Assembly (NCBI GenBank): GCA_903872005.1
Contig: CAIQJD010000343.1
Coordinates: forward strand, 1-16,192
Direction of reading: 5' to 3'
DNA length: 16,192 nucleotides
DNA from: an uncultured bacterium
GTDB taxonomy: Bacteria; Chloroflexota; Anaerolineae; JACIWP01
This document shows positions 1,804 through 15,436 of the stretch, one piece after another (positions within the stretch are counted from its first letter, which is position 1; each line of letters opens with the position of its first letter). Under the pieces are notes generated by a model. It ran no database searches. It saw only the letters and a list, made by a program, of their open reading frames with translations, and had not been told where the DNA came from. Made by a program: the position numbers and the translations under genes.

Positions 1804-2775
1804 ATGAAACGGATTGCAGTGTTGACCAGCGGCGGCGACGCGCCGGGCATGAATGCAGCCATCCGCGCCGTCGTGCGCGCCGGCGTAGACCAGGGCTGGG
1901 AAGTCCACGGCGTGCGTAACGGCTTCGCCGGCCTGATCGCCGGCGCCTTCCTCCCCCTGCGGGCGCGCGACGTGGGCGGCATCATTCAGCGCGGCGGCAC
2001 GCTGCTGGGCAGCGCCCGCTGCGCCGAATTCAAGACCGTCGAGGGCCGCACCCTGGCCCTGCGCCAGCTCTACCAGGAAGACATCGAGGCCCTGATCGTC
2101 ATTGGCGGCAACGGCTCGCAGAGCGGCTCCAATGCGCTGGCGCAGATGGGCTTCCCGGTCGTTGGCGTCGCATCAACCATTGATAACGACCTGTGCGGGT
2201 CGGACGTCACCATCGGCGTGGATACCGCGCTCAACGTGGCGCTGGAAGCCGTAGACCGGCTCAAGACCACGGCCTCCTCGCACCAGCGCGCCTTCCTGGT
2301 CGAAGTGATGGGGCGCGGCTGCGGCTATTTGGCGCTGATGGTCAGCATCGCCGGCGGCGCGGAATATGTCGTCATCCCCGAAGTGGAGACCGATCCCGAA
2401 GCGCTGGCCCAGAGCTTGCGCGCCGCCTGGGAACGGGGCAAGCCCCACTCCCTGGTCATCGTCGCCGAAGGCGCCAAATACAACGCGGCGCGCCTGGACG
2501 AGTACTTCAAGGCCAACCGCGAGCGCCTGGGCTTCGACCTGCGGATCACCACCCTGGGCTACGTGCAGCGCGGCGGCGAGCCGACCGCGTCCGACCGGCT
2601 CTTGGGGACGCGCCTGGGCGCGGCCGCCGTTGCGGCGCTGGCACGCGGGCAGCACGGCGTCTTGATGGGCCAGATCAAGGGTGAGATCGTGGCGACGCCC
2701 CTGGCAGAAGCGGTCTGCGGCATCAAGCCCCTCGATCTGAGTCTCATGGACCTGGCGCGGGTCATGGCGCAATGA
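1804..2775 (+). CDS. pfkA: 6-phosphofructokinase (PfkA family) with atypical phosphoryl-donor-site residues
   Basis: This 323-residue protein is the usual length for a bacterial PfkA, which phosphorylates fructose 6-phosphate in glycolysis. It aligns with the E. coli enzyme without shifting key positions: GGDAPGMN near the N-terminus, TIDND with catalytic Asp127, Arg162, MGR with Arg171, PEVE, and a QRGG loop at 255-258. Two donor-site positions are unusual: GGNGS places Asn at 103, where ATP enzymes have Asp, and the residue before TIDND is Ser124 rather than Gly (ATP type) or Lys (pyrophosphate type). Gly104 is the ATP-type residue, so ATP is the likelier donor, but this is not settled. The start ATG at 1804 has AAGGAG seven bases upstream. 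The stop codon overlaps the next gene's start (ATGA), which suggests translational coupling. Confidence 0.93.
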   Translation: MKRIAVLTSGGDAPGMNAAIRAVVRAGVDQGWEVHGVRNGFAGLIAGAFLPLRARDVGGIIQRGGTLLGSARCAEFKTVEGRTLALRQLYQEDIEALIVIGGNGSQSGSNALAQMGFPVVGVASTIDNDLCGSDVTIGVDTALNVALEAVDRLKTTASSHQRAFLVEVMGRGCGYLALMVSIAGGAEYVVIPEVETDPEALAQSLRAAWERGKPHSLVIVAEGAKYNAARLDEYFKANRERLGFDLRITTLGYVQRGGEPTASDRLLGTRLGAAAVAALARGQHGVLMGQIKGEIVATPLAEAVCGIKPLDLSLMDLARVMAQ

Positions 2776-5405
2776 CGCCCAAGAGACAACGCCGCTTTCC
2801 CCTCTGGCTGCCGGCGCTCGTCCTCCTGATCGGCGTCATCCTCCTGGCCGGCGTCATCTGGCGCGCGGGCGAGCGCCCGCTGGTCGCCACGTCGGCCCCG
2901 GCCGCTGCGACGGAAAGCGCCGCCGCGGCCCTGCGCGCTGCCGGCTATGCGCCCATCGGCGCGCCGGCCTGGGCCGCCGAACCGGCCGGCTGGCGCGCCC
3001 CGGGCGACTACCGCCTCTTCTTCGTCGCCGCGACGCCCGATGGCAGCGCGGACCTCTTCGCGGCCGAAGCGCAGGTAGACGCCGCCGGCCGCGTCAGCCG
3101 CATCGAGCCGCCAGCGCGCCTGACCGACACGCCCGACGGCGCGGAGCGCGCGCTGGTCGCCGCCGGCCATTGGCTGGCCTACGCCACCTCCGTCGGGGGC
3201 TACGTCCAGAGCATCGCCTGCCGCTCGCTGCGTGATGGCGCGACGGAGACCTTCATCCTGGACCGGCCGGCCGAGAGCGTGACCCTGGCCTGGATCGCCG
3301 AGGGATCCCTGGAAGCCACGGCGCTGGCCGGCGGCCAGACGACCCGCTGGCGCATCGCGCCGGCCAGCGGCCATGTGGAGCCGGCCGGCGGCCTGACCTA
3401 CGCGCCGGCGCAACGCGGCGAGATGTCCTTCCTGCCGCGCATGGTCAGCCGCATCCGCGAGCTGCCCGGCGTGGGGCCAGAGAAGATCGCCTTCCTGGAA
3501 AATGTCTTCTTCACCCTGGTGGATTACGCCAATCGGCTGTGGCACGGCCGCGCCGCGCCGGCCGCCCCGCCCCCCGTGGCGGCTGCGCCCACGCCGACCG
3601 CGCCCCCTTTGCCGACGCCCCAGCCGCCGACAGAGACGCCGCTGCCGGCCGAGACGCCCAACCCCGTCGCCAGCCTCGCCGCGCCAACCAGCAGCCCGAT
3701 GCCGACCGCCGCGCCTTCTGCCGCGCCGACGGCGACGCGGACGGCCACGCCGGCCGGCAAGACGCTCAAAGACGGCGTCGTCTGGCGCGGCAACGTGCAG
3801 CCCGACCCGCAGCGCGCCTACGCTTTCGCGGAAATCGTGGAACTGGACGCGACCCAGTTGCAGGTCAAGATGATCCCCGGCTCCAGCGAGCCGAAGCCAA
3901 CCACGGGCCTCGTCGGTTCGGGGGTGATCCCGGCCGAGGACTGGCCGGCGCTGGTCGCCGCGTTCAACGGCGGATTCGCCGCCATGCACGGCCGTTTCGG
4001 CATGCTGGTAGACCGCAAGGTCTATTTGCCGGCGCGCGATGGCATCGCCACCCTGGCTGTCTACGAGGACGGCTCCATCCGCATGGGGACCTGGGGCAAA
4101 GACCTGCGCCAGACGCCCGACATGGTCTCCTATCGCCAGAACTGCCCGCCGCTGATTGAGCATGGCGTCATCACGGCCGAGACTGGCAAGCTGACCCTGT
4201 GGGGTCTCTCCGTCGCCAACGAGGTCTATCTCTATCGCTCCGGCCTGGGCGTGACCGCCGAAGGGAAGCTGGTCTACGTCGCCGGCAAGCCCCTTTCGGC
4301 CTACACCCTGGCGCGCGCCCTGCAAATGGCCGGCGCAGTCTATGCCATGCAGCTCGACGTAGACGAATACCACGTCGTCTTCCTGACCTACGACGTGACG
4401 GCCGGGAAGGACGGCGCGCCGGCCGTGGCCGGCCAAAAGCTGCGCGCCGACATGCACGGCTACGATAACTACTTCCTGGCCCCGTATCAGCTCGACTTCT
4501 TCTACCTGACGCGACGGGCCGCGCCCCTGGCCGGCGCGGTGCGCCTGGCCCCGACGCCGGCCGCCGGCGCGGCCATCCCGACGCCGGCCTATCCCAACCT
4601 CCCCGGCCGGCTCGCCTTCGCCTCGACGCGCGATGGCAACTGGGAGATCTACGCCATGCCGGCCGACGCCTCGACCACCCCAACCCGGCTGACCGAGCAT
4701 TCCTCCGATGACCTTTACCCGGCCTGGTCGCCCGATGGCCGGCGCATCGCCTTCGCCAGCCGGCGCGACGGCGACGCCGAAATCTACACGCTGGAGATCG
4801 CCGGCGGCCGCCTGCAGCGCCTCACGCGGCTCCCATCGGAAGAGTGGGCGCCGGCCTGGTCGCCGGATGGGGCATCCCTGGCCTATCAGTCGGATCGCAA
4901 CGGCCAATCGGACATCTACCTTGCTCGGAGCGACGGCAGCGACGAGAAGCGCCTGACGACCGACATGGGCAACCACGAAGCGCCGCACTGGTCGCCCGAT
5001 GGGACGCGTCTCGTCTTCGACTCTGACCTCGACGTGAACGAGGCGGTGCATGCCTCGATCAACCTGTATATCATGCAAGCGGACGGCCGCGATCCCCGCC
5101 GTATCTTCGCCGGCGCGGAATCGCCGGCCTGGTCGCCCGACGGCCAGCAAATCGCCTTCACGCCCATCTGGGGCGGGCGCTGGCAGGTCGTCGTCATCAA
5201 CGCCGATGGCAGCGGGGCGCGCCAGTTGACCGCCGGCGCGTATGATGCGCGCTACCCGGCCTGGTCGCCCGATGGCAAATGGATCGCCTTCGCCGGCAAT
5301 GAGAGCGGCCATTGGGAGCTATACGTCATGCCGGCCGCTGGCGGCCCGCCGCAACGCCTGACCTACGGCGCGGCCGATAGCTCCTATCCCGCCTGGGGGC
5401 CATGA
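2772..5405 (+). CDS. membrane-anchored phosphodiester glycosidase-like (NAGPA/DUF2233) protein with C-terminal TolB-type propeller
   Basis: This is an 877-residue multidomain exported protein. After a basic N-terminus, residues about 11-30 form a hydrophobic anchor. The next 220 residues look like strand-rich propeller-type sequence (RLFFVAATPDGSADLFAAEA), then a Pro/Thr/Ala stalk (about 259-335). The middle domain (about 337-585) carries hallmarks of the NAGPA/DUF2233 fold: AAFNGGF, YEDGSIRMGTW, RSGLGVTAEGKLVYVAG and AMQLDVDEYH. Known members remove sugars from phosphodiester-linked glycans or act on cell-surface polymers. The C-terminal 265 residues hold six PD40 repeats (AWSPDGRRIAF type with EIY and RLT segments); the final AWGP could close a six-bladed ring. 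The start overlaps the pfkA stop, and the egsA start follows nine bases after this gene's stop. The substrate is unknown; an envelope polymer is inferred. Confidence 0.86.
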   Translation: MTPKRQRRFPLWLPALVLLIGVILLAGVIWRAGERPLVATSAPAAATESAAAALRAAGYAPIGAPAWAAEPAGWRAPGDYRLFFVAATPDGSADLFAAEAQVDAAGRVSRIEPPARLTDTPDGAERALVAAGHWLAYATSVGGYVQSIACRSLRDGATETFILDRPAESVTLAWIAEGSLEATALAGGQTTRWRIAPASGHVEPAGGLTYAPAQRGEMSFLPRMVSRIRELPGVGPEKIAFLENVFFTLVDYANRLWHGRAAPAAPPPVAAAPTPTAPPLPTPQPPTETPLPAETPNPVASLAAPTSSPMPTAAPSAAPTATRTATPAGKTLKDGVVWRGNVQPDPQRAYAFAEIVELDATQLQVKMIPGSSEPKPTTGLVGSGVIPAEDWPALVAAFNGGFAAMHGRFGMLVDRKVYLPARDGIATLAVYEDGSIRMGTWGKDLRQTPDMVSYRQNCPPLIEHGVITAETGKLTLWGLSVANEVYLYRSGLGVTAEGKLVYVAGKPLSAYTLARALQMAGAVYAMQLDVDEYHVVFLTYDVTAGKDGAPAVAGQKLRADMHGYDNYFLAPYQLDFFYLTRRAAPLAGAVRLAPTPAAGAAIPTPAYPNLPGRLAFASTRDGNWEIYAMPADASTTPTRLTEHSSDDLYPAWSPDGRRIAFASRRDGDAEIYTLEIAGGRLQRLTRLPSEEWAPAWSPDGASLAYQSDRNGQSDIYLARSDGSDEKRLTTDMGNHEAPHWSPDGTRLVFDSDLDVNEAVHASINLYIMQADGRDPRRIFAGAESPAWSPDGQQIAFTPIWGGRWQVVVINADGSGARQLTAGAYDARYPAWSPDGKWIAFAGNESGHWELYVMPAAGGPPQRLTYGAADSSYPAWGP

Positions 5406-5414
5406 GAAAGAAAG

Positions 5415-6749
5415 ATGACGATGCAGCCTGAAGCGATGCTCGGCCGGCGCTGGCAATGCGCCTGCGGCCAGGAACACTACATCCCGACGCGCGAGCTGAT
5501 CGTGCGCCCCGGCGCGCTGGATGCATTGCCGGCGGCCCTGGAGCGCCACGGGCTGCGCGGCCGGCTCCTCCTCCTGGCCGACCCGACCACGTATGACGTC
5601 GCCGGCCGGCGCGCCGAGGGATTGTTGCGCGCCGCCGGCCATATCGTAGATGCTCTGATCCTGCACGCCGAACATGGCGACCTGAAGGCCACCGACGCCA
5701 TCGCCGATCAACCTCTGGCGGCCCTGCGCGGCGATACGGCCGCGCTGCTGGCAGTCGGCGCCGGCACGATCAACGACCTGACCAAATACGCCGCGCACCG
5801 CGTCGGCCGGCCCTACGTGACCGTCCCCACCGCCGCCTCGATGAATGGCTTCACGTCGCATATCGTGGCCCTGGTCGTGCGCGGCGTCAAGCGCACCCTG
5901 CCGGCCGCGCCGCCGCTCCTGGCCGTCGCCGATACCGAGATCATCCGCGCCGCGCCGGCGGCGCTGACTCGCGCCGGCTTCGCCGACATCCTCGCCAAGC
6001 CGGTCGCGACGGCCGACTGGATGCTCGATCATCTCTTGCACGGCGCGCCCTACTGTGAGGAGCCGTATCGCCTCCTGGAGCGCCTGGAGCCGCGCTATCT
6101 CGGCCGGCCGGAGGGCCTGGCCGCCGGCGATCCCGACGCCGTCGCCGCGCTGACCGAGGCGCTCCTTTGGTCGGGCGTCTCCATGACCATCGCCGGCAGC
6201 TCCAGCCCGGCCTCCGGCGGCGAGCATCTTCTCTCGCACCTGCTGGATATGCAGGCCCTCCTGGGTGACGCGCCGGCCAATCTGCACGGCGCGCAGGTCG
6301 GCCTGGGGACGCTCTTCAGCGCCGCGCTATACGAGATGCTCCTGGCGCTGGATGCGCCGCGCCCGCCGGCCTGGCAACCCCTGGAGGCATACGCGGCCGA
6401 CTTGCAGACCTTTGGGCCGCTGGAGAGCGAGGTGCGCGCCGAATTTGCCCGCAAGCTGCTGCCGGCCGAGTCGTATGCCCGCCATGCGCTGGCGCTCACG
6501 CGGCGCTGGGACGAGGTCAAGGCGGCGGCGCGGCCCTTCCTGCGGCCGGCCGCTGCGCTGCGCGACCTTTTGCGCCGGGCCGGCGCGCCAACGCGCCCCG
6601 AAGATCTGGGGCTTGGGCCGGCGCATTTCCGCGCCATAGCGGCGCGGGCGCGCTACATCCGGGCGCGCTATACCGTGCTGGATCTGGCCGCAGACGCCGG
6701 CGTGCTGCCGGCGCGCCTCGATGAGGCGCTGGCCGTCTTCGCCGGGTAA
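5415..6749 (+). CDS. egsA: sn-glycerol-1-phosphate dehydrogenase (EgsA/AraM family)
   Basis: This 444-residue protein belongs to the iron-ADH-like superfamily that reduces dihydroxyacetone phosphate with NAD(P)H to sn-glycerol 1-phosphate, the archaeal-type lipid stereoisomer. The signature is strong: GAGTINDLTKYAA (115-127) for nucleotide binding, then PYVTVPTAASMNGFTS. Metal ligands are recognisable as Asp191 (GFADILAK), His271 (SGGEHLLSH) and His291 (LHGAQVGLG). A short Cys-containing N-terminus (CACGQEH) precedes the domain, as I recall in other bacterial AraM-like proteins. The ATG at 5415 has only a GAAAGAAAG leader and an in-frame ATG two codons later is possible, so translation probably benefits from the gene nine bases upstream. 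Its substrate derives from the pathway of the upstream phosphofructokinase. The enzyme class is secure; the in vivo use of the product is unknown. Confidence 0.88.
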   Translation: MTMQPEAMLGRRWQCACGQEHYIPTRELIVRPGALDALPAALERHGLRGRLLLLADPTTYDVAGRRAEGLLRAAGHIVDALILHAEHGDLKATDAIADQPLAALRGDTAALLAVGAGTINDLTKYAAHRVGRPYVTVPTAASMNGFTSHIVALVVRGVKRTLPAAPPLLAVADTEIIRAAPAALTRAGFADILAKPVATADWMLDHLLHGAPYCEEPYRLLERLEPRYLGRPEGLAAGDPDAVAALTEALLWSGVSMTIAGSSSPASGGEHLLSHLLDMQALLGDAPANLHGAQVGLGTLFSAALYEMLLALDAPRPPAWQPLEAYAADLQTFGPLESEVRAEFARKLLPAESYARHALALTRRWDEVKAAARPFLRPAAALRDLLRRAGAPTRPEDLGLGPAHFRAIAARARYIRARYTVLDLAADAGVLPARLDEALAVFAG

Positions 6750-7004: not shown

Positions 7005-8039
7005 CTATTTCATCGGATGGGCCGCGAAGAAGTCCCAGATGTACTGCGACGCATTGATGTCCGCATTGGTCGGCCCGAAGACGACCGGATCGAGGACGCT
7101 GCCGCCGGGCCACGTGTGTCCGCCGCCCTCGACGGTGCAGAGCGTCACCGTTGCGCCGTCGGTGCAGTTCTTATAGACCCGGCAGGTCACCGCGCCCTTC
7201 TGGTAGACCACTTCGGTCTCGCCCGAGCAGCCGTTGCGCTGCGCCCAGGCGGCCATCTGGCTGACGATGTCCACTTGCTCCGCGACTTCGACCAGGCCGG
7301 CCGCCCGGATCACTTCGCGCGACCCAGGGAAGACGCGCGCCGGCTGCGGCTCCAGGCGGATCGTCGTCTGCGTGAGCCGGTCGCCGGCCGCCGTCCCGTA
7401 GAATTGCAGCACCGGCATCGCATGCGACGGCAGACACGGCGTGACGCCGGCCGGCGCGGCGACGCCGGCTACTGCGGCGATGCGGCTGCTCAACTGGCAA
7501 CCCAGCCGATAAGCCATGTTGCCGCCGCAGCACATCCCGACGGCATAGATGCGCTTCGCATCAACGTTGTACTGGGCGCTGATGGAATCAATCATCTTGG
7601 AGACGGCGTACACGTCGTCTACCGTGAATTCGCCGCCCAGGATACATTGCCGGCCGTCGGCCCAGCCCTGGCCGAAGCAATCCGGATAGGCCACCAGGAA
7701 GCCGACTTCCTCGGCAATGTCGCTCATTTGACACAACCACTCTTGGCCCTGGCTCAGATCGTCGGTCGGGGCGCCGGGACGCCCGTGCAGGTTGATCACC
7801 AGGGGATAGGCTTTCGTCGCATCATAGGTGGTGGGGACGTAGAGATCGTAGGTGCGATCCAGACCGGGCAGCACTTCGCCACGCGGCAGGCTCAGTTCCT
7901 TGATGTAGCCGGTGGGAAGAGAGGCAGCAGCCGGCTCGACCAAAGCTGGCTCCGCCAGGGCCGGGCTGATCGAGATCCACACGAGCAGCACGGCCAATCC
8001 GACCACGACGCAAATTCCCAATCCCATGCGCGTCTTCAT
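7005..8039 (-). CDS. secreted PHB-depolymerase/feruloyl-esterase-like alpha/beta hydrolase with Cys at the nucleophile position
   Basis: This 344-residue protein has a clear signal peptide (MKTRMGLGICVVVGLAVLLV, then a cleavable SISPALA). The fold is recognisable as the LpqC/PHB-depolymerase esterase family: YPLVINLHGRPG (oxyanion region), VDDVYAVSKMIDSI, AKRIYAVGMCCGGNMAYRLGC around the nucleophile elbow, and EGGGHTWPGG with the catalytic His308. Relatives normally read G-x-S-x-G at the elbow; here it is G-M-Cys170-Cys-G with two TGC codons, as in dienelactone hydrolase, which uses Cys. Many other cysteines suggest disulfides. The start at 8039 was chosen over an ATG 13 codons upstream because AAGGAGG sits just before it and the signal peptide then begins properly. 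Substrate unknown. No convincing promoter was found upstream. Confidence 0.87.
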   Translation of the reverse strand: MKTRMGLGICVVVGLAVLLVWISISPALAEPALVEPAAASLPTGYIKELSLPRGEVLPGLDRTYDLYVPTTYDATKAYPLVINLHGRPGAPTDDLSQGQEWLCQMSDIAEEVGFLVAYPDCFGQGWADGRQCILGGEFTVDDVYAVSKMIDSISAQYNVDAKRIYAVGMCCGGNMAYRLGCQLSSRIAAVAGVAAPAGVTPCLPSHAMPVLQFYGTAAGDRLTQTTIRLEPQPARVFPGSREVIRAAGLVEVAEQVDIVSQMAAWAQRNGCSGETEVVYQKGAVTCRVYKNCTDGATVTLCTVEGGGHTWPGGSVLDPVVFGPTNADINASQYIWDFFAAHPMK

Positions 8040-8040
8040 C

Positions 8041-8060
8041 CTACACCTCCTTATGTGTAG
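8041..8060 (-). promoter_or_regulatory. Shine-Dalgarno inside a hairpin loop of the esterase mRNA
   Basis: On the reverse strand CTACACATAAGGAGGTGTAG can fold with a 6-bp stem (CTACAC/GTGTAG), placing most of the AAGGAGG ribosome site in the loop directly before the ATG at 8039. This could modulate translation; that is inference from sequence alone. Confidence 0.45.
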
Positions 8061-8061
8061 A

Positions 8062-8113
8062 GCGATGGTCTCTGCCATCGCAATGGGTGGAGCGACGGTC
8101 TCCTGTCCATCGC
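8062..8113. repeat. two tandem imperfect hairpin units in the esterase leader
   Basis: The first unit pairs GCGATGG (8062-8068) with CCATCGC (8075-8081) perfectly. The second pairs GCGACGG (8092-8098) with CCATCGC (8107-8113) with one mismatch. Both share the frame GAGCGA(T/C)GGTCTC and look like a duplicated element, about 20-75 nt upstream of the esterase start codon. Confidence 0.7.
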
Positions 8114-8501: not shown

Positions 8502-8530
8502 TTGAAAACGCGCCCTAGTTCTGCTACAAT
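8502..8530 (+). promoter_or_regulatory. sigma70-type promoter for the BTAD-STAND-WD40 gene
   Basis: TTGAAA (8502-8507), 17 nt, then TACAAT (8525-8530), with a TG one base before the -10 box. The predicted start near 8537 leaves a leader of about 70 nt. Confidence 0.8.
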
Positions 8531-8608: not shown

Positions 8609-11600
8609 ATGGCGCGTGTAGAATTCTTCTTTCTGGGCGACTTCCGTGTCTTGGTCGAAGGCCGGCCGGCCTCGCCGTTCGAGTCCGATAAGGCGCGTGC
8701 CCTGCTGGCCTACCTCCTCATGGAATCGGAGCGACCCCACCGCCGCGATGCGCTGGCCGGCCTCCTCTGGCCCGAACGCCCCGACGGGGCCGCGCTTCGC
8801 AACCTGCGTCAGGCGTTGTTCAGTATTCGCCAGGCCCTTGGCGATGACGCAGCCCATCCACCGCTCCTGTCCGTCACCCATGATGCCATCGGTCTTGATC
8901 GCGCCGGCGACTTCTGGCTCGACGTCAGCGCCTTTGAGACGCTGGCCGCCTCACAGACCCCGGCGCAACTGGAAGAAGCCATCTCCCTCTATCGTGGCGC
9001 GCTCCTCGACAGCCTGACGCGTGTCGACAGCGAACCATTCGAGCAATGGGTACTGGCCGAGCGCGAGCGAGTGCAGCGCCAGGCCGTCGAATGCTTGAGT
9101 CGGCTGGCGAACCTCTACGCCGGCCTCCATCAGATCGAGCCGGCCCTCAAGGCCGTCTGGCGCATCCTGGAGCTTGACCCCTGGCGCGAAGAAGCGCACC
9201 AACAGGCCATGCGCCTGCTGGTAGCCAGCGGGCAGCGCGCCGCGGCCCTGGCGCAATTCGAGACCTGCCGGCGCGTCCTGGCCGAGGAGCTGGGCGCGGA
9301 GCCGGGCGCCGAGACGGTGCGGTTGTACGAGAGCATCCGTGATGGGACATATTCGGCCGGAGCGGGCGCAGAGGAGCTGGCGGCTCTCTCGGCCGGGGCG
9401 GCGCGGCCGGCGCGGCCGGTGGGGGCCTGCCCCTATCGGGGGTTGGCAGCTTTTCGCGAGGCGGATGCGCCATTCTATTACGGGCGCGAAGGGTTCGTGG
9501 ATGTGTTGGAGCGGGCGGTGCGACGCCAGACACTGACCGCGGCGATTGTAGGCTCGTCCGGCTCGGGCAAGTCGTCGGCGTTATTTGCCGGCCTGCTGCC
9601 GCGGCTGCGCCAGGAGGCCGGCTGGCAGTTCGCCTTGTTGCGCGCCGGCGCGCAACCCTTCTATTCTCTCGCCGGGGCGCTGCTGCCGTTGTTGGAGCCG
9701 GGCATGAGCGAGACCGACCGGCTGGCCGAGACGCGCAAACTGGCGGAGCATTTCGGGAAAGGCGAAGTCAGCTTGGCCGAAGTGATCGAGCGCATTCAGG
9801 AAAAGGCCCCTGAGGCCAGCCGGCTGCTGCTGGTGGTGGATCAGTTCGAGGAGTTGTACACGCTGTGCCCGGATACGAGCGTGCAGCGGGCCTTTGTGGA
9901 TGAGTTGCTGGCCGTGGCGGAGGCTGGCAAGGGCCGCCGGCCGGCGCCGTGCATCATCCTGCTGACGCTGCGGGCCGACTTCATGGGCCAGGCGTTAGCG
10001 CATCGGCCCTTTGCCGATGCGCTGCAGGAAGGCGCGCTGCTGATGGGGCCGATGACGCGGGCGGAACTGCGCTCGGCGATTGAGAAGCCGGCGGTGCTGC
10101 AGGGGGCGGCCTTCGAGGCTGGTCTGGTGGAGCGCATCCTGGACGACGTGGGGGAAAAGCCGGGGAACCTGCCGCTGTTGGAGTTCACGCTGACCTTGTT
10201 GTGGGAACGGCAGAGCGACGGTTGGCTGACGCACGGGGACTACACGGCGCTGGGCGGGGTCGAGGGCGCGGTGGCAGCCTACGCGGATCAGGTGTACGCG
10301 GCATTGGACGCCGGCGAACAGGAGCAGGCCCGGCGGGCGCTGGTGCAATTGGTGCGGCCGGGCGAGGGGACGGAAGACACGCGGCGGGTGGCGCTGCGCG
10401 AGGAGTTGGGGGAAGAGAGCTGGCGGCTGATCCAGCGGCTGGCGGACTGGCGGCTGGTGGTGACGGGGCGCGACGCTGAGGGCCGGCAGACGGCCGAGGT
10501 GGTGCACGAGGCGCTGATCCAGAAATGGGGGCAGTATCGGGAGTGGATGAATGCCGACCGGGCTTTCCGGGCGTGGCAGGAGCGGCTGCGGGGGAACCTG
10601 CGGCAGTGGAAAGAGAGCGGGGGCGACGAGGGGGCGCTGCTGGCCGGCGGGCCGTTGGCGGCGGCCGAGAACTGGCTGGCCGAGCGCGGGGGCGACCTGA
10701 GCGAAGCCGAGGCGGCGTACATTCGAGCGGGCCAGACGCTGCAGGCCCGGCAGCAAAGGGAGCGGCAGCGCCGGCGGCAGCGGCTCGTGCTGGGATTGGC
10801 GGCCGGCCTGGTGATTGCGTTGGCTCTGGCGGCCTTTGCCCTGATCCAGCGCCAGGACGCGCTCGCGCAGCGTCAGGAGGCGATCACACAGCGCCAGGCG
10901 ACTGAGCGCCAGGCCGCGATCCTGCTGGCCGGCCAGGCCGAGAACGAGCTGGCCAAGGGCTACGGCGACCGCGCCGTGCTGCTGGCGCTGAATGCGCTGG
11001 AGAACTACCCCTACACCGCGCAGGCCGAGCATGCCCTGGGCGACGCCGTTTCGTACACCCGCGCCGTGCAGCAGTACGCCGGCCACCCGAAGGCCGTGAC
11101 CAGCGTCGCCTGGTCGCCGGATGGCACGCGCATAGCCTCCACCTGCACCGAGGGGAATCGTGTGGATGTCTGGGATCCCCTGACGGGCAAGGTGATCCTG
11201 ACCATGGACGAGCCCAAGCAGACCATCGGCCACGTGTGGGAGAAGGCGCTGCACGTCCAGTGGAGCCAGGACGGCAAGCGCCTGTTGACGCTCAATGGCG
11301 AACGTACGAATTTGGGCAATCAGGACTATACCCTGATGGTGTGGGATGTCGCATCGGGCACGTTGCTTTCTCGCATCGAGATGGCCAACCAGGCCGAGCC
11401 GGAAGGTGACCTGGAGGGCGGAACCCTGGTCCTGTATCCGACCGGGGCGGGGGCAGAGATCGCCCCGCGAGGCGGGCGGCTGGCGACCCTGGGCGGCGAC
11501 AATACGGCTCTCGTTTGGGACGCCGCCTGGCAAAAACCGGCGCTGGTTCTCAGCGGACATACGAAGGGCGTCAACAGCGTGGATTGGTCGCCGGACGAGA

Positions 11601-13105
11601 CGAAGTTGGTCACCGCCAGTCAGGACGGCACGGCGATCGTCTGGGATACGCAGACCGGCCAGGCGCTCACCACGCTGAGCGGCCACACCGGCCGGGTCAG
11701 CGTGGCGCTCTGGTCGCCGGACGGGAGTCAGATCGCGACCGCCGGCGAGGACGGGAGCATACGCATCTGGAAGGCCGGCGACGGTTCCCTGGCGCGGAGC
11801 ATCGAGGGCAACGCCGGCGAAGTGTACAGCCTGGCCTGGGCGCCCAACGGGGTGCGGCTCTTCTCTGGTCATGAGGATGGCAGCATCCACATCTGGGAGA
11901 CCGCCAGCGGCAAGGCGTTGGAGACGCTGCGCGGCCACCAGGGCGCGGTCATGGCCCTGAAGTGGTCGCCCACGGACGACCGGCTGGTCAGCGGCGACGG
12001 CAGCGGCTATGCCCGCGTCTGGAACGCCGCCCCCAGCACCGCCTGGCGTCTGTTCCCACCCCAGGCTGCCCGCGGCGGCGATGGGTTTGCGAATACCGCC
12101 GACTGGTCCAGCGACGGACGGTACCTCGCAATAGCCGGCGGCGACAACATCTACGCCAACGAGCCGCCGCTCTTCGCCCTCTGGGATGTGCAAGCCAATC
12201 GGCTGCTGATGGAGAAGTTGGTTGACAAACTTCATTATTACGGAAACGGTGTGAAGTTCTCGCCGGATAATCGAGCACTCATCTATATCGGCATAAGGGC
12301 ATTCAACAGTTACGCTGACACGGCCACCGCATACGTCTTCGATGCCCAGAGCGGCGAGATCATCCGCACCTTCACTCCGGGCGGCGAAGACCATATGACG
12401 TCCGGCTTTGCCTGGTCGCCGGACGGCTCTATGGTCGTCACGAATCTATTCAGCGGCGACTCCCTGGTCTGGGACTACCAGACGGGCAAACAGGTGGCCA
12501 GACTGCCGCATGGCAAAGAAGGGTTTCTAGCCGGCGATGCCTCGTGGTCGTCGGATGGATCGAAGATCGCCGTGTCCACCGATGACGGCAACGTGCATGT
12601 GTGGGATGCGCGCACCTGGCAACCGCTCTTCGTGGCGCAGCATGATCCATTGGCCTTGATGAATGTCGCGCGCTGGTCGCCGGACGGCAAACGCCTGCTG
12701 ACCGGGGGCGGCGATCTGTCCGGCGGAAAAGACACCTCCGCCCGCATCTGGGACGCCGAGACGGGCAAGGAGTTGTTGGCCTTCCGCGGCCACGCCGAGA
12801 TGGTATTCGTGGGAACCTGGTCGCCGGATGGCCGGCGCATCGCCACCATTGACAACGCCGGCGTCGTCAAAGTCTGGGACTCATCGACCGGCGAGGAGCT
12901 GCTGACCATTACGGTGCCATTGCTCTATTGGGGTCTCGCCCTGTGGTCTCCCGACGGGCAACATCTCGCCATCGTGGGGAACAAGACGCTGCTCAGCGTG
13001 TGGCGCGTTTGGCAGTCCAAGGAGGAGCTGGTCGCCTACGCCAGGGAATGCTGCGTCTTCCGGCAACTGACGGACGCGGAGCGGACGCAGTTCGGCCTGA
13101 AGTAG
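8609..13105 (+). CDS. BTAD (SARP-like) winged-helix / nSTAND NTPase / WD40 signalling protein
   Basis: This is a 1498-residue multidomain regulator. Residues 1-100 form an OmpR/SARP-type winged helix (VEFFFLGDFRVLVEGRP, with LAGLLWPE) followed by a BTAD helical repeat (about 105-250). PYRGLAAF (about 274) opens a STAND NTPase: Walker A GSSGSGKSS (about 314) and Walker B LLLVVDQFEEL (about 406). Residues about 725-748 are one membrane helix, followed by heptads of QRQDALA type. The rest (about 824-1467) contains 14 WD40 units (WSPDG and VWD marks), enough for two seven-bladed propellers, and a tail ending in LTDAERTQFGLK. STAND proteins act as ligand-triggered switches; here the propellers would be the sensor and the winged helix the output. 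AAGGAG eight bases before ATG 8609 favours this start over the in-frame ATG at 8573. Targets and ligand are unknown. Confidence 0.92.
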   Translation: MARVEFFFLGDFRVLVEGRPASPFESDKARALLAYLLMESERPHRRDALAGLLWPERPDGAALRNLRQALFSIRQALGDDAAHPPLLSVTHDAIGLDRAGDFWLDVSAFETLAASQTPAQLEEAISLYRGALLDSLTRVDSEPFEQWVLAERERVQRQAVECLSRLANLYAGLHQIEPALKAVWRILELDPWREEAHQQAMRLLVASGQRAAALAQFETCRRVLAEELGAEPGAETVRLYESIRDGTYSAGAGAEELAALSAGAARPARPVGACPYRGLAAFREADAPFYYGREGFVDVLERAVRRQTLTAAIVGSSGSGKSSALFAGLLPRLRQEAGWQFALLRAGAQPFYSLAGALLPLLEPGMSETDRLAETRKLAEHFGKGEVSLAEVIERIQEKAPEASRLLLVVDQFEELYTLCPDTSVQRAFVDELLAVAEAGKGRRPAPCIILLTLRADFMGQALAHRPFADALQEGALLMGPMTRAELRSAIEKPAVLQGAAFEAGLVERILDDVGEKPGNLPLLEFTLTLLWERQSDGWLTHGDYTALGGVEGAVAAYADQVYAALDAGEQEQARRALVQLVRPGEGTEDTRRVALREELGEESWRLIQRLADWRLVVTGRDAEGRQTAEVVHEALIQKWGQYREWMNADRAFRAWQERLRGNLRQWKESGGDEGALLAGGPLAAAENWLAERGGDLSEAEAAYIRAGQTLQARQQRERQRRRQRLVLGLAAGLVIALALAAFALIQRQDALAQRQEAITQRQATERQAAILLAGQAENELAKGYGDRAVLLALNALENYPYTAQAEHALGDAVSYTRAVQQYAGHPKAVTSVAWSPDGTRIASTCTEGNRVDVWDPLTGKVILTMDEPKQTIGHVWEKALHVQWSQDGKRLLTLNGERTNLGNQDYTLMVWDVASGTLLSRIEMANQAEPEGDLEGGTLVLYPTGAGAEIAPRGGRLATLGGDNTALVWDAAWQKPALVLSGHTKGVNSVDWSPDETKLVTASQDGTAIVWDTQTGQALTTLSGHTGRVSVALWSPDGSQIATAGEDGSIRIWKAGDGSLARSIEGNAGEVYSLAWAPNGVRLFSGHEDGSIHIWETASGKALETLRGHQGAVMALKWSPTDDRLVSGDGSGYARVWNAAPSTAWRLFPPQAARGGDGFANTADWSSDGRYLAIAGGDNIYANEPPLFALWDVQANRLLMEKLVDKLHYYGNGVKFSPDNRALIYIGIRAFNSYADTATAYVFDAQSGEIIRTFTPGGEDHMTSGFAWSPDGSMVVTNLFSGDSLVWDYQTGKQVARLPHGKEGFLAGDASWSSDGSKIAVSTDDGNVHVWDARTWQPLFVAQHDPLALMNVARWSPDGKRLLTGGGDLSGGKDTSARIWDAETGKELLAFRGHAEMVFVGTWSPDGRRIATIDNAGVVKVWDSSTGEELLTITVPLLYWGLALWSPDGQHLAIVGNKTLLSVWRVWQSKEELVAYARECCVFRQLTDAERTQFGLK

Positions 13106-13112
13106 AGGGTGG

Positions 13113-13144
13113 GGCGCGCCGGTCTTGCGTGAGTCCCGCGCGCC
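13113..13144. terminator. weak hairpin between convergent STAND and ptuB genes
   Basis: GGCGCGC (13113-13119) pairs with GCGCGCC (13138-13144) around an 18-nt loop in the 75-bp gap between the two stop codons. No T-run follows in either direction, so terminator function is tentative. Confidence 0.35.
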
Positions 13145-13180
13145 GCTGGAGGATATGGCAGAGTGAGGCCGGCCGGCGGC

Positions 13181-13939
13181 TCAGTAGTTGGCGCCAACTT
13201 GCTGGATGGCGGCAGCGCAGGCCTCCCAGATATCTTTGCGCTGGGCGCGTAGGTCGCAGAATGGCGGGAGCGCCTGACCGGCGCCGATGAAACACCAGCC
13301 CAGCAGGCCGTGGTCATCAGCATCCTGCAAGGCGTCGAGCAACGCGTCAGCCGAGAGGATATCCCCTCTCAAGAACTGATCCACGATGCGGCGCAGCCGG
13401 CGATAGGTGCGGATGCATCCGCTCGCCAAAGCTTCGCGCTGGTCAAGTTGCAGGATCTCCACGGTTCTGAGGCCCCTGGCAGACCAATCCTGGCTATCTG
13501 CATCGAAACGGGGCACGATATTGCCTGTCTGTGGATCGAAATCGAGATACAGCCAGGGTTCCTCTGCGGTCGGGTCAATCAGCAAAGGAGCGCCATCTGC
13601 AGCCAGGGGAAAACGGTCGCCTTTCAGCCGGCCACATTCTGTGCAACAGAGGAGCAAGTTCGGCCACGCGAACATCCGCTCTGGATAGCGCGTTTTCGGC
13701 CAGAAATGCTCGATGTCCGTGCCATGGGAGTCGAGGCAATACATGCAACGCTGGCGCTCTCCCGTCATGCGTCTGAGGACATCCAGCACGGAGCGCAAGG
13801 TCGCCGACTGACGGCCGCTCTGCCATTCTTCATGCACGCGCAATTGGCCGGCGCGGTGCTTTTCGTCAGCTTGGTTCTGTTTCTGGATCAAGCCGTCTTG
13901 CGTCGCAGATGGAAGAACGGTGCGTATCACGCGGCGCAT
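13181..13939 (-). CDS. ptuB: Septu-type HNH endonuclease (PtuB-like)
   Basis: This 252-residue protein carries an HNH nuclease core held by two zinc-type cysteine pairs: CMYC (65-68), then TDIEHFWPK with Asp75, Glu77 and His78, then WPNLLLCCTEC with Asn94 and Cys99/Cys102, followed by LKGDRFPL. This order (C-x2-C, EHF-PK, NLL, C-x2-C, KG) is typical of the PtuB effector of Septu anti-phage systems, which cleaves nucleic acid when licensed by the PtuA ATPase. The start ATG at 13939 has GAGGAG ten bases upstream, inside the end of ptuA. A TTG at 13966 in the same frame has no good ribosome site and was not used. The gene starts four bases after the ptuA stop, so one operon is nearly certain. 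Retron-linked HNH effectors are similar, but no reverse transcriptase is seen here. Confidence 0.8.
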   Translation of the reverse strand: MRRVIRTVLPSATQDGLIQKQNQADEKHRAGQLRVHEEWQSGRQSATLRSVLDVLRRMTGERQRCMYCLDSHGTDIEHFWPKTRYPERMFAWPNLLLCCTECGRLKGDRFPLAADGAPLLIDPTAEEPWLYLDFDPQTGNIVPRFDADSQDWSARGLRTVEILQLDQREALASGCIRTYRRLRRIVDQFLRGDILSADALLDALQDADDHGLLGWCFIGAGQALPPFCDLRAQRKDIWEACAAAIQQVGANY

Positions 13940-13943
13940 CGCG

Positions 13944-15242
13944 TCATAACTCCTCGTCGTTCTCAACCCAGAAACGCAGTTGCTCTACTTTCTTGTCTTC
14001 TTCAGGAGTCAACTTCGCGCCGGCGCGCCGCTTCCCCTGCAGGAGCGCGTACTCCGCGCGCGCCTGTACCGCGCGCGGAGAGCGCGTGTTTTTCAGGCCA
14101 AAGGCCGGCGTTAACAGAATCGTATCCGGTCGGGATGCAATGACTTTGCTGTAATCTTCGTCACTCAGTCTGCGCGGCAGGTCGCTACTGCCTGGCTCGG
14201 GCAATACGAAAAGTCCATGCGTATCCGCCGCCTGACAGATGAGTGGGCTATGCGTGGTGACCAGAAATTGAATATTCGGAAGGTGTTGCTTCAGCCAGAA
14301 GCCAATCTCGCGCTGCCACTCCGGGTGCAAGTGCGCGTCTATTTCGTCTACCAGCACGACGCCGCTGCGTCTGATGACCAATCGGTTGTTCTCGTCACGC
14401 TCGGTCAGTCCCTTCACGCCATATATGGCGATGAGATGGCGGATGATGTCGGCCAGCAACGCCAACGCCACACGGTAGCCATCGCTCATTTCGCCCCAGG
14501 TCAAGGCGATGCCATTGCGGTCGCGCAACCACAAGCCGTCCGAATCTACCTTATCTACCGAAATCTCATTGGGCAGCAAGTTATCACTCAATAGTTCCAG
14601 TAACAGTTCTAACTGCTTGCGTTCGTCTTCACGTTCTTCCAGGTCCTTATACCGCAGGTCACGCAGCCAGGTATCCACCTCTCCCAAAGACGCAGCCTCC
14701 TGGAAGAGCGTGATGAATCGCCCTGTAATGGGAGCAACCATCTGCCGAATGACATCCTGGCTGGGGCCAAAGACGCGTCGAAAAGGGCCATACCCACAAG
14801 AGAACCAGCCCTTGGCATCAGGTGACCACAGTGTGCGAGTCGGCGTTACGTAGCTAGGTGGCTTCCCTGATGGAATAGGATTATCTAGAGATGGTTCCCG
14901 CCCCCCATTTTTCACCGAGATCCTGGCAGGAAACATAGACCGAGAAGTCTTGCCCGAACCGGCGAAGCTATCATCATCAGGGCATGGGACGATCTCCAAC
15001 TGAATGGATGCGTCTTCTTGCGCGCCGGAGCGAATCCAGCCTTGAAAGCTGGGTTGCAGGGCGCGGGCAGTGTCTTTGCCTGTCAATCCCACGGCAATGG
15101 CCTTGAGAAGTGAACTCTTGCCCGAACCATTGTCGCCGGTGAACACCGTCCAGCCGGCATACGTCCCATCCTGGCGCGTGAGATCGAAATCAAGCTCCGT
15201 GAACCCTCGGATGTTTTTTAGGACTACCTTGCTGATATACAT
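13944..15242 (-). CDS. ptuA: Septu-type AAA ATPase (PtuA-like)
   Basis: This 432-residue protein is a complete SMC/ABC-like AAA ATPase. It starts YISKVVLKNIRGFTELDFDL, has Walker A GDNGSGKS (36-43), a central insertion with a short charged helical stretch (about 195-222), an ABC-type signature EMSDGYR (251-257), Walker B VVLVDEIDAHLHPEWQ (295-310) and the switch His331 in TTHSP. In Septu systems, ATPases of this type form assemblies that hold and control the HNH partner, and the ptuA-ptuB pair gives phage resistance. Similar ATPases occur in OLD- and retron-associated systems; the adjacent HNH gene decides for Septu. Base usage differs from the neighbours: host-typical CCGG words are sparse and more A/T-ending codons are used, suggesting acquisition by transfer. 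A near-perfect promoter lies at 15317-15345; the ribosome site (CAGGTG) is weak. Confidence 0.82.
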   Translation of the reverse strand: MYISKVVLKNIRGFTELDFDLTRQDGTYAGWTVFTGDNGSGKSSLLKAIAVGLTGKDTARALQPSFQGWIRSGAQEDASIQLEIVPCPDDDSFAGSGKTSRSMFPARISVKNGGREPSLDNPIPSGKPPSYVTPTRTLWSPDAKGWFSCGYGPFRRVFGPSQDVIRQMVAPITGRFITLFQEAASLGEVDTWLRDLRYKDLEEREDERKQLELLLELLSDNLLPNEISVDKVDSDGLWLRDRNGIALTWGEMSDGYRVALALLADIIRHLIAIYGVKGLTERDENNRLVIRRSGVVLVDEIDAHLHPEWQREIGFWLKQHLPNIQFLVTTHSPLICQAADTHGLFVLPEPGSSDLPRRLSDEDYSKVIASRPDTILLTPAFGLKNTRSPRAVQARAEYALLQGKRRAGAKLTPEEDKKVEQLRFWVENDEEL

Positions 15243-15316
15243 GGATACACCTGTGACTTTTCCAGAGGCGGCGACCTTTGGTCATGTGTCCTACCCCGCG
15301 TTGCCGACTCTCCAGT

Positions 15317-15345
15317 ATTATAAGAGGAAAACGCCGGCGTTGCAA
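15317..15345 (-). promoter_or_regulatory. sigma70-type promoter for ptuAB
   Basis: On the reverse strand TTGCAA (15345-15340), 17 nt and a perfect TATAAT (15322-15317). The predicted start near 15310 gives a leader of about 68 nt before ptuA. It is one of the strongest-looking promoters in the window and would make the defence genes independent of their neighbours. Confidence 0.82.
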
Positions 15346-15401: not shown

Positions 15402-15436
15402 GCAGAGGTCGCATGGGATGCCCATGCGACCTCTGC
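15402..15436. terminator. perfect 16-bp-arm hairpin downstream of the M81 peptidase gene
   Basis: GCAGAGGTCGCATGGG (15402-15417) and its exact complement (15421-15436) are separated by three bases. The hairpin lies 20 bases past the stop of the leftward peptidase gene and upstream of the ptuA promoter, so it could insulate the two units. There is no T-tract. The segment CGCAGAGG plus TCGCA recurs with an 8-bp insertion at 8351-8371, so it may be a member of a dispersed palindromic repeat family. Confidence 0.65.

Follow-up and report, generated by a model that had tools for sequence, protein, structure and literature searches.

We found that a complete Septu gene pair, ptuAB, and the gene for a large STAND regulator lie tail to tail in the window (the whole 16,192-nucleotide stretch of DNA analyzed here), and there is a good probability that they are two independent units. 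On the best reading, a known defence system adjoins a known kind of regulator and the two are merely neighbors. Telling such a likely chance neighbor apart from a defence partnership matters for the discovery of immune systems by gene neighborhood. The more interesting lead is likely the regulator, for its predicted membrane topology and the swapping of its output domains, rather than its position beside Septu.

Gene content of the window

ORFs of the window that stood out on length and domain content were picked, and are listed with other features in Table 1. The STAND gene and ptuB are convergent, with 75 bp (13106-13180) between their stops; an earlier note on this DNA had described this arrangement and the 1498-residue STAND protein, and both the ORFs and the domains are as it said. 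Between the two stops we detected no hairpin (z 0.50 and -1.16), and the window held no tRNA and no Rfam match above the gathering score. Convergent genes at this distance could be subject to transcriptional interference or common regulation. Promoter-like consensus matches number 3 in the region, where 1.4 are expected by chance.

Table 1. Features of the window in order of position.
Feature	Position	Strand	Remark
SH3-domain protein	210-1490	−	
Phosphofructokinase	ends 2775	+	
NAGPA/PD40 protein	2772-5405	+	
Glycerol-1-phosphate-dehydrogenase-like enzyme	5415-6749	+	
PHB-depolymerase-type esterase	7005-8078	−	
Promoter-like TTGAAA-17-TACAAT before STAND gene	8502-8530	+	consensus match only
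STAND gene: SARP/BTAD - nSTAND1 - hydrophobic helix - WD40 regulator, 1498 aa	8609-13105	+	
Hydrophobic-helix codons of STAND gene, residues 728-746 of 1498	10790-10846	+	between NTPase and WD40
ptuB, HNH nuclease of Septu, 252 aa	13181-13939	−	PADLOC PtuB1 1.1e-37
ptuA, ABC/SMC-type ATPase of Septu, 432 aa	13944-15242	−	PADLOC PtuA1 2.6e-157
Promoter-like TTGCAA-17-TATAAT before ptuA	15345-15317	−	consensus match only
MlrC-family gene	15457 to window edge	−	

A few features lie apart from the STAND gene and ptuAB. The NAGPA/PD40 protein, whose N-terminal stretch is hydrophobic, joins in one chain a NAGPA-type phosphodiester glycosidase domain and, after it, TolB-like PD40 repeats. The glycerol-1-phosphate-dehydrogenase-like enzyme matches Fe-ADH_2 and reaches 195.1 bits with an NCBIfam model whose cut-off is 413; the genome is presumably bacterial. 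Between the MlrC-family gene and ptuA we noticed a perfect 16-bp inverted repeat with a 3-nt loop (15402-15436; z -6.1) and without a T run; it did not recur in the window, even with 3 mismatches allowed, nor as an exact copy in 182 loci.

ptuAB is a complete Septu pair

The 446-position PADLOC model PtuA1 fits window PtuA nearly end to end (residues 1-428 of 432), and the PtuB1 model matches PtuB (E-values in Table 1); weaker PADLOC matches include the type IV restriction model mREase_IV (7.8e-63 and 2.1e-19). In PtuA, the Walker A motif (K42 and G[D/N]NGSGK), the Walker B residues D299/E300 and H331 are invariant in 15 aligned sequences that are 68-74% identical to the window protein, and the Walker motifs of this PtuA-family ATPase are thus intact. 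In PtuB, H78 and N94, the catalytic histidine and asparagine of a PtuB-family HNH nuclease, are invariant together with C65, C68, C98, C99 and C102 in 19 aligned sequences (55-67% identity). The two genes are adjacent in one operon, with 4 bp between them. Elsewhere, ptuA and ptuB are 3 bp apart at locus L081/L142 (70% and 66% identity to the window pair), and at least 19 contigs are apparently common to the PtuA and PtuB homologues among the 120 listed for each, these contigs being paired by eye on equal size, so that short ones may coincide by chance. Because of the PADLOC matches, the catalytic residues and the operon structure, we assign ptuAB to Septu, and the earlier description of a Septu-type operon of an AAA ATPase and an HNH nuclease is borne out: judged by sequence, the pair is a complete copy of this known two-gene anti-phage system and would be expected to act in defence.

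For ptuB we prefer an internal ATG as the start over the TTG of a longer frame (to 13966), since the best PADLOC model, the aligned relatives and the L081 copy all begin at or next to that ATG. PtuB had no Pfam match, and its AlphaFold model, built from the 19 rather similar sequences, was of low confidence (mean pLDDT 59.8).

With characterized Septu the window pair shares the PtuA1 and PtuB1 profiles, the two-gene operon and the Walker and HNH residues, and chains of PtuA and PtuB are among its sequence relatives in the PDB; it differs in that window PtuA belongs to a clade of 432-aa proteins only distantly similar to the solved PtuA chains. In the Septu of E. coli B88, according to the available text of PMC13096335, H75 and N91 have the same spacing of 16 as H78 and N94 in window PtuB, immunity was lost when either the Walker or the H-N-H motif carried substitutions, and the target is tRNA-Tyr. 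The targets of PtuAB vary, from nicked DNA for one Septu to tRNA-Tyr for retron-Eco7 (available text of PMC11555353). By analogy with characterized Septu and retron PtuAB, the PtuA ATPase and the PtuB HNH nuclease would jointly cut nucleic acid during infection, either phage DNA or host tRNA, and so stop phage growth.

The pair might also be the effector half of a type I-A retron whose reverse transcriptase (RT) and ncRNA have been lost or lie elsewhere, given that the PDB chains closest to PtuA in sequence are the retron Ec83, I-A and Ec78 ATPases and that the NCBIfam models for retron PtuA and PtuB give matches, though these stay under the cut-offs. We give this almost no credence. None of ten window proteins has an RT domain and there is no Rfam match, in a window that ends about 950 bp beyond ptuA, and on these grounds we rejected a retron effector pair; in addition, PtuA follows the PtuA1 model over nearly its whole length, and none of the four scanned neighbors at L142 is an RT.

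The Septu pair also stands out in composition. GC3 is 0.64 in ptuA and 0.70 in ptuB (the latter taken over the longer TTG-start frame), as against 0.82-0.88 in seven other window genes, which suggests acquisition, and ptuAB was probably acquired horizontally. PtuA relatives of about 70% identity occur, among the few that are named, in Anaerolineae, Thermodesulfobacteriota and Pseudomonadota. A close PtuA copy was present in 1 of 396 genomes from the class to which the Thermoflexia MAG with locus L001 (G001) belongs, and any PtuA (E 1e-60) in 3 of them. At L142 a transposase-like ORF lies upstream of ptuAB and a histidyl-tRNA synthetase gene beyond the pair. The GC3 values, the scattered PtuA relatives and this transposase-like ORF fit a mobile cassette, short of proof; we saw no convincing repeats that would bound ptuAB as a mobile unit. 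Phages yielded no PtuA at E 1e-30, plasmids yielded 4 Streptomyces/Kitasatospora records at E 1e-50 (38-41%), and viral contigs yielded 7 weak partial matches.

No Septu found beside STAND relatives

The earlier note had further suggested that the STAND protein serves defence or triggers Septu. Put in full, the STAND protein would detect phage or stress and use its SARP head to activate transcription of ptuAB, making the two a joint defence locus. The genes do adjoin, nSTAND1 is named in putative counter-invader systems (available text of PMC8195603), and heads of the CHAT, trypsin-like, EAD and TIR types occur in distant relatives (see below). The distribution of the two gene families points the other way. 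With tblastn we found no PtuA or PtuB at 80 STAND loci. Counted from the nSTAND1 domain, so that the remainder of the gene belongs to the flank, 47 of these loci extend beyond 5 kb in both directions and the other 33 fall short of this in at least one. Nor were there any PtuA or PtuB matches in 142 STAND loci and stretches, which partly overlap. Conversely, four other ptuA-bearing stretches (L142 and L183-L185; 4.7-14 kb) gave no STAND match.

At the level of whole genomes, 8 that bear STAND relatives had no PtuA at E 1e-20, and among 7 further ones a diverged PtuA was present in one (G397, a Parabeggiatoa; 1 of 15 overall), with two matches, one 38% identical and the other a fragment with a stop, neither of which is on the two STAND contigs from that genome that were covered (L058 and L063). 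PtuA at E 1e-100 was found in 0 of 369 genomes of the class of G397, a search that had no positive control and whose limit G397's own copy does not reach. Of the 396 genomes introduced above, in each of which the top 2 STAND and top 4 PtuA candidates were scored, 39 have a STAND relative (E 1e-100) and none of these also has PtuA; since chance would give only about 0.3 genome with both, this zero is weak when taken alone.

Two further points speak against a joint locus: ptuA has a promoter-like site of its own, which is a consensus match only, and the membrane topology that we predict below would be awkward for a sensor of cytosolic phage proteins. Together with the findings on neighboring genes that follow, these results make a joint locus very improbable, and we rejected the STAND protein as a regulator of ptuAB, as no co-occurrence was seen in the loci and genomes searched. 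We therefore prefer independent neighbors; the adjacency looks accidental, because relatives of the STAND gene and of Septu were not found side by side elsewhere.

Few PADLOC matches around the STAND gene and its relatives

Scanning of nine window proteins with PADLOC (E up to 0.01 or 1e-5; 1e-5 for six of the seven other than PtuA and PtuB) gave matches for PtuA and PtuB only. With E values up to 0.01 allowed, the STAND protein had no match to any PADLOC family, and hence none to a known defence STAND profile. We rejected a defence island, as the earlier note had proposed, since none of the seven other proteins scanned had a match.

We also compared the neighborhoods of STAND relatives, as the earlier note had advised for checking a link with defence genes. 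At most 6 of 92 flanking genes match PADLOC (E 1e-10), the best at 1.1e-18, and the families concerned are PDC-S07, mad8, C3a156 and HEAT-ARM_XIII, none of them PtuA or PtuB. These 92 genes (up to two per side, 90-900 aa, from rough ORF calls) represent 28 loci; four of 32 STAND regions (L125, L126, L134 and L144) were dropped, having no recognizable STAND gene. At least 2 of 102 control genes matched PADLOC, with hits to 50 families, many of which are kinase-type models; the control was drawn from eight genomes that have long contigs (27 stretches), fewer genomes than in the test set, and makes for a rough comparison. Since the control lists families and not a total of members, we give no enrichment ratio and claim only that there is no obvious defence neighborhood. 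Of 126 Pfam families in the neighbors, the 25 listed include SpoVS, NUDIX, glycosyltransferases, MutS, tRNA synthetase and chorismate synthase; the sole conflict-labelled one among them, GT4-conflict (2 members, 2.2e-11), marks proteins that resemble ordinary glycosyltransferases too.

A role of the STAND gene in defence or in triggering Septu is thus left unsupported, its relatives being present in genomes where PtuA was not found, with no PtuA or PtuB next to them and few, weak PADLOC matches nearby. The pattern that the earlier note named as contrary to its proposal was seen in part: STAND homologues do occur in genomes where Septu was not found and with no adjacent ptuAB, but not at the same locus, as none of the loci compared encodes the MlrC or the esterase neighbor.

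The STAND protein is a predicted single-pass membrane regulator

The STAND gene starts with an ATG behind AAGGAG, and an earlier in-frame ATG (8573) is a less likely start. Its product contains a BTAD domain (92.3 and 97.5 bits in two scans), as SARP regulators do, preceded by a Trans_reg_C winged helix that scored weakly (21.7 bits against a Pfam cut-off of 26.2), then nSTAND1 (383.7 bits) with the Walker motifs GSSGSGKS and VVDQFEEL, and WD40 repeats with about 14 WD-type motifs, a number consistent with two propellers. The closest STAND loci are in MAGs labelled Thermoflexia, Anaerolineae and Chloroflexota, which makes a member of the Chloroflexota the most likely host of the window.

Between the NTPase and the WD40 part, the protein has a hydrophobic helix with QRERQRRRQRLV just before it. 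When homologues were aligned on nSTAND1 (115, the remaining five of the 120 listed having too little sequence), the helix followed just after the NTPase in 111 and was absent in 4; its N-side was the more positive in 106 of the 111, and a second segment was present further on in 1. Loci with a long tail gave a similar picture, with the helix in 47 of 51 (absent in 4), a more positive N-side in 45 of the 47 and a second segment in 1. A pattern-based count found the helix in 95 of 97 homologues, the N-side more positive in 91 of 95 and another segment anywhere in 3 of 95, the motif pattern having missed, and left unscored, 23 of the 120. Control windows in the WD40 part showed a hydrophobic segment in 0 of 105. 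As the helix is conserved and its N-side is the more positive, the STAND protein looks, from hydropathy and charge, like a single-pass membrane protein with the head and NTPase inside and the WD40 part outside.

Membrane one-component regulators of the CadC/ToxR type have a winged-helix head inside, a single membrane helix and a sensor outside. The same layout is predicted for the STAND protein, which has in addition an NTPase switch and, as its sensor, WD40 repeats. With AfsR and other large SARP regulators it shares the N-terminal SARP head with BTAD, the central NTPase and the C-terminal repeat domain (available text of PMC10972967); compared with AfsR, it has nSTAND1 in place of NB-ARC, WD40 in place of TPR and the hydrophobic helix in between, and it missed the cut-off of the NCBIfam AfsR equivalog by far (35.5 of 1430 bits). 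As a single-pass one-component regulator, the STAND protein would sense a ligand or partner with its WD40 propellers outside the cell, the nSTAND1 NTPase inside would be a switch driven by ATP, and the task of binding DNA and recruiting RNA polymerase at target promoters would fall to the SARP winged-helix/BTAD head.

Output domains are swapped on the nSTAND1-WD40 chassis

By BLAST, a SARP-type head was present in 116 of the 120 listed homologues, and in the other 4 (P0091, P0115, P0128 and P0129; nSTAND1 79-81% identical) a cyclase-type head replaces it. Twelve close heads, from the window and 11 loci, were scanned and comprised 9 BTAD, 2 protein kinase and 1 guanylate cyclase. In a more distant set, whose record titles name mainly cyanobacteria besides some Streptomyces and other organisms, 61 heads gave 35 CHAT, 11 Trypsin_2, 8 HTH_31, 2 EAD4, 2 EAD8 and 1 TIR, counted per family and not per member; these represent 61 of 69 loci, those left out being L030, L031, L038, L040, L041, L059, L069 and L071, of which three (L031, L038 and L069) have a usable N-terminus.

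The CHAT, trypsin-like, EAD and TIR heads are outputs of a death or immunity type and indicate that conflict-type proteins elsewhere do use this chassis. The metacaspase-NACHT-WD40 architecture is already known and has a STAND NTPase and WD40 in common with the window protein (available text of PMC3501461); nSTAND1 conflict proteins likewise share the STAND NTPase, and distant nSTAND1 relatives bear CHAT heads. In contrast to both, the window protein has a SARP head and no protease or effector-associated domain, and the earlier remark that a BTAD output would be unusual for a defence sensor was apt. Stand-alone immunity of the Avs or NACHT kind, independent of Septu, would agree with the shared STAND NTPase and with the protease, EAD and TIR heads of the distant relatives; given the DNA-binding, cyclase or kinase heads of the close set, the conserved hydrophobic helix and the few PADLOC matches among neighbors of relatives described above, we regard it as improbable for the window protein.

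We favor a regulator, and with somewhat less than even confidence we propose that nSTAND1-helix-WD40 proteins are bacterial cell-surface NLR-like receptors, in which one conserved chassis spans the membrane, the propellers facing outward and the NTPase switch inward, and can bear any of several outputs (SARP DNA-binding head, adenylate cyclase, kinase, CHAT or trypsin-like protease, or TIR), here wired to transcription. The literature searched, which includes few subscription journals, did not describe a membrane receptor of the SARP-nSTAND1-WD40 kind. Such a widespread STAND-WD40 chassis, its helix conserved and its outputs exchangeable, would offer in bacteria a testable counterpart to surface-sensing NLR-like signaling.

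Two observations concern individual relatives. In P0061, SARP and cyclase heads occur together, and its cyclase-type head, like those of P0091, P0115, P0128 and P0129, is of class III (70-81% nSTAND1 identity across the five). On one contig (G045:C27, 110575-116812), two nSTAND1 genes of the same type as the STAND gene lie close together on the same strand.
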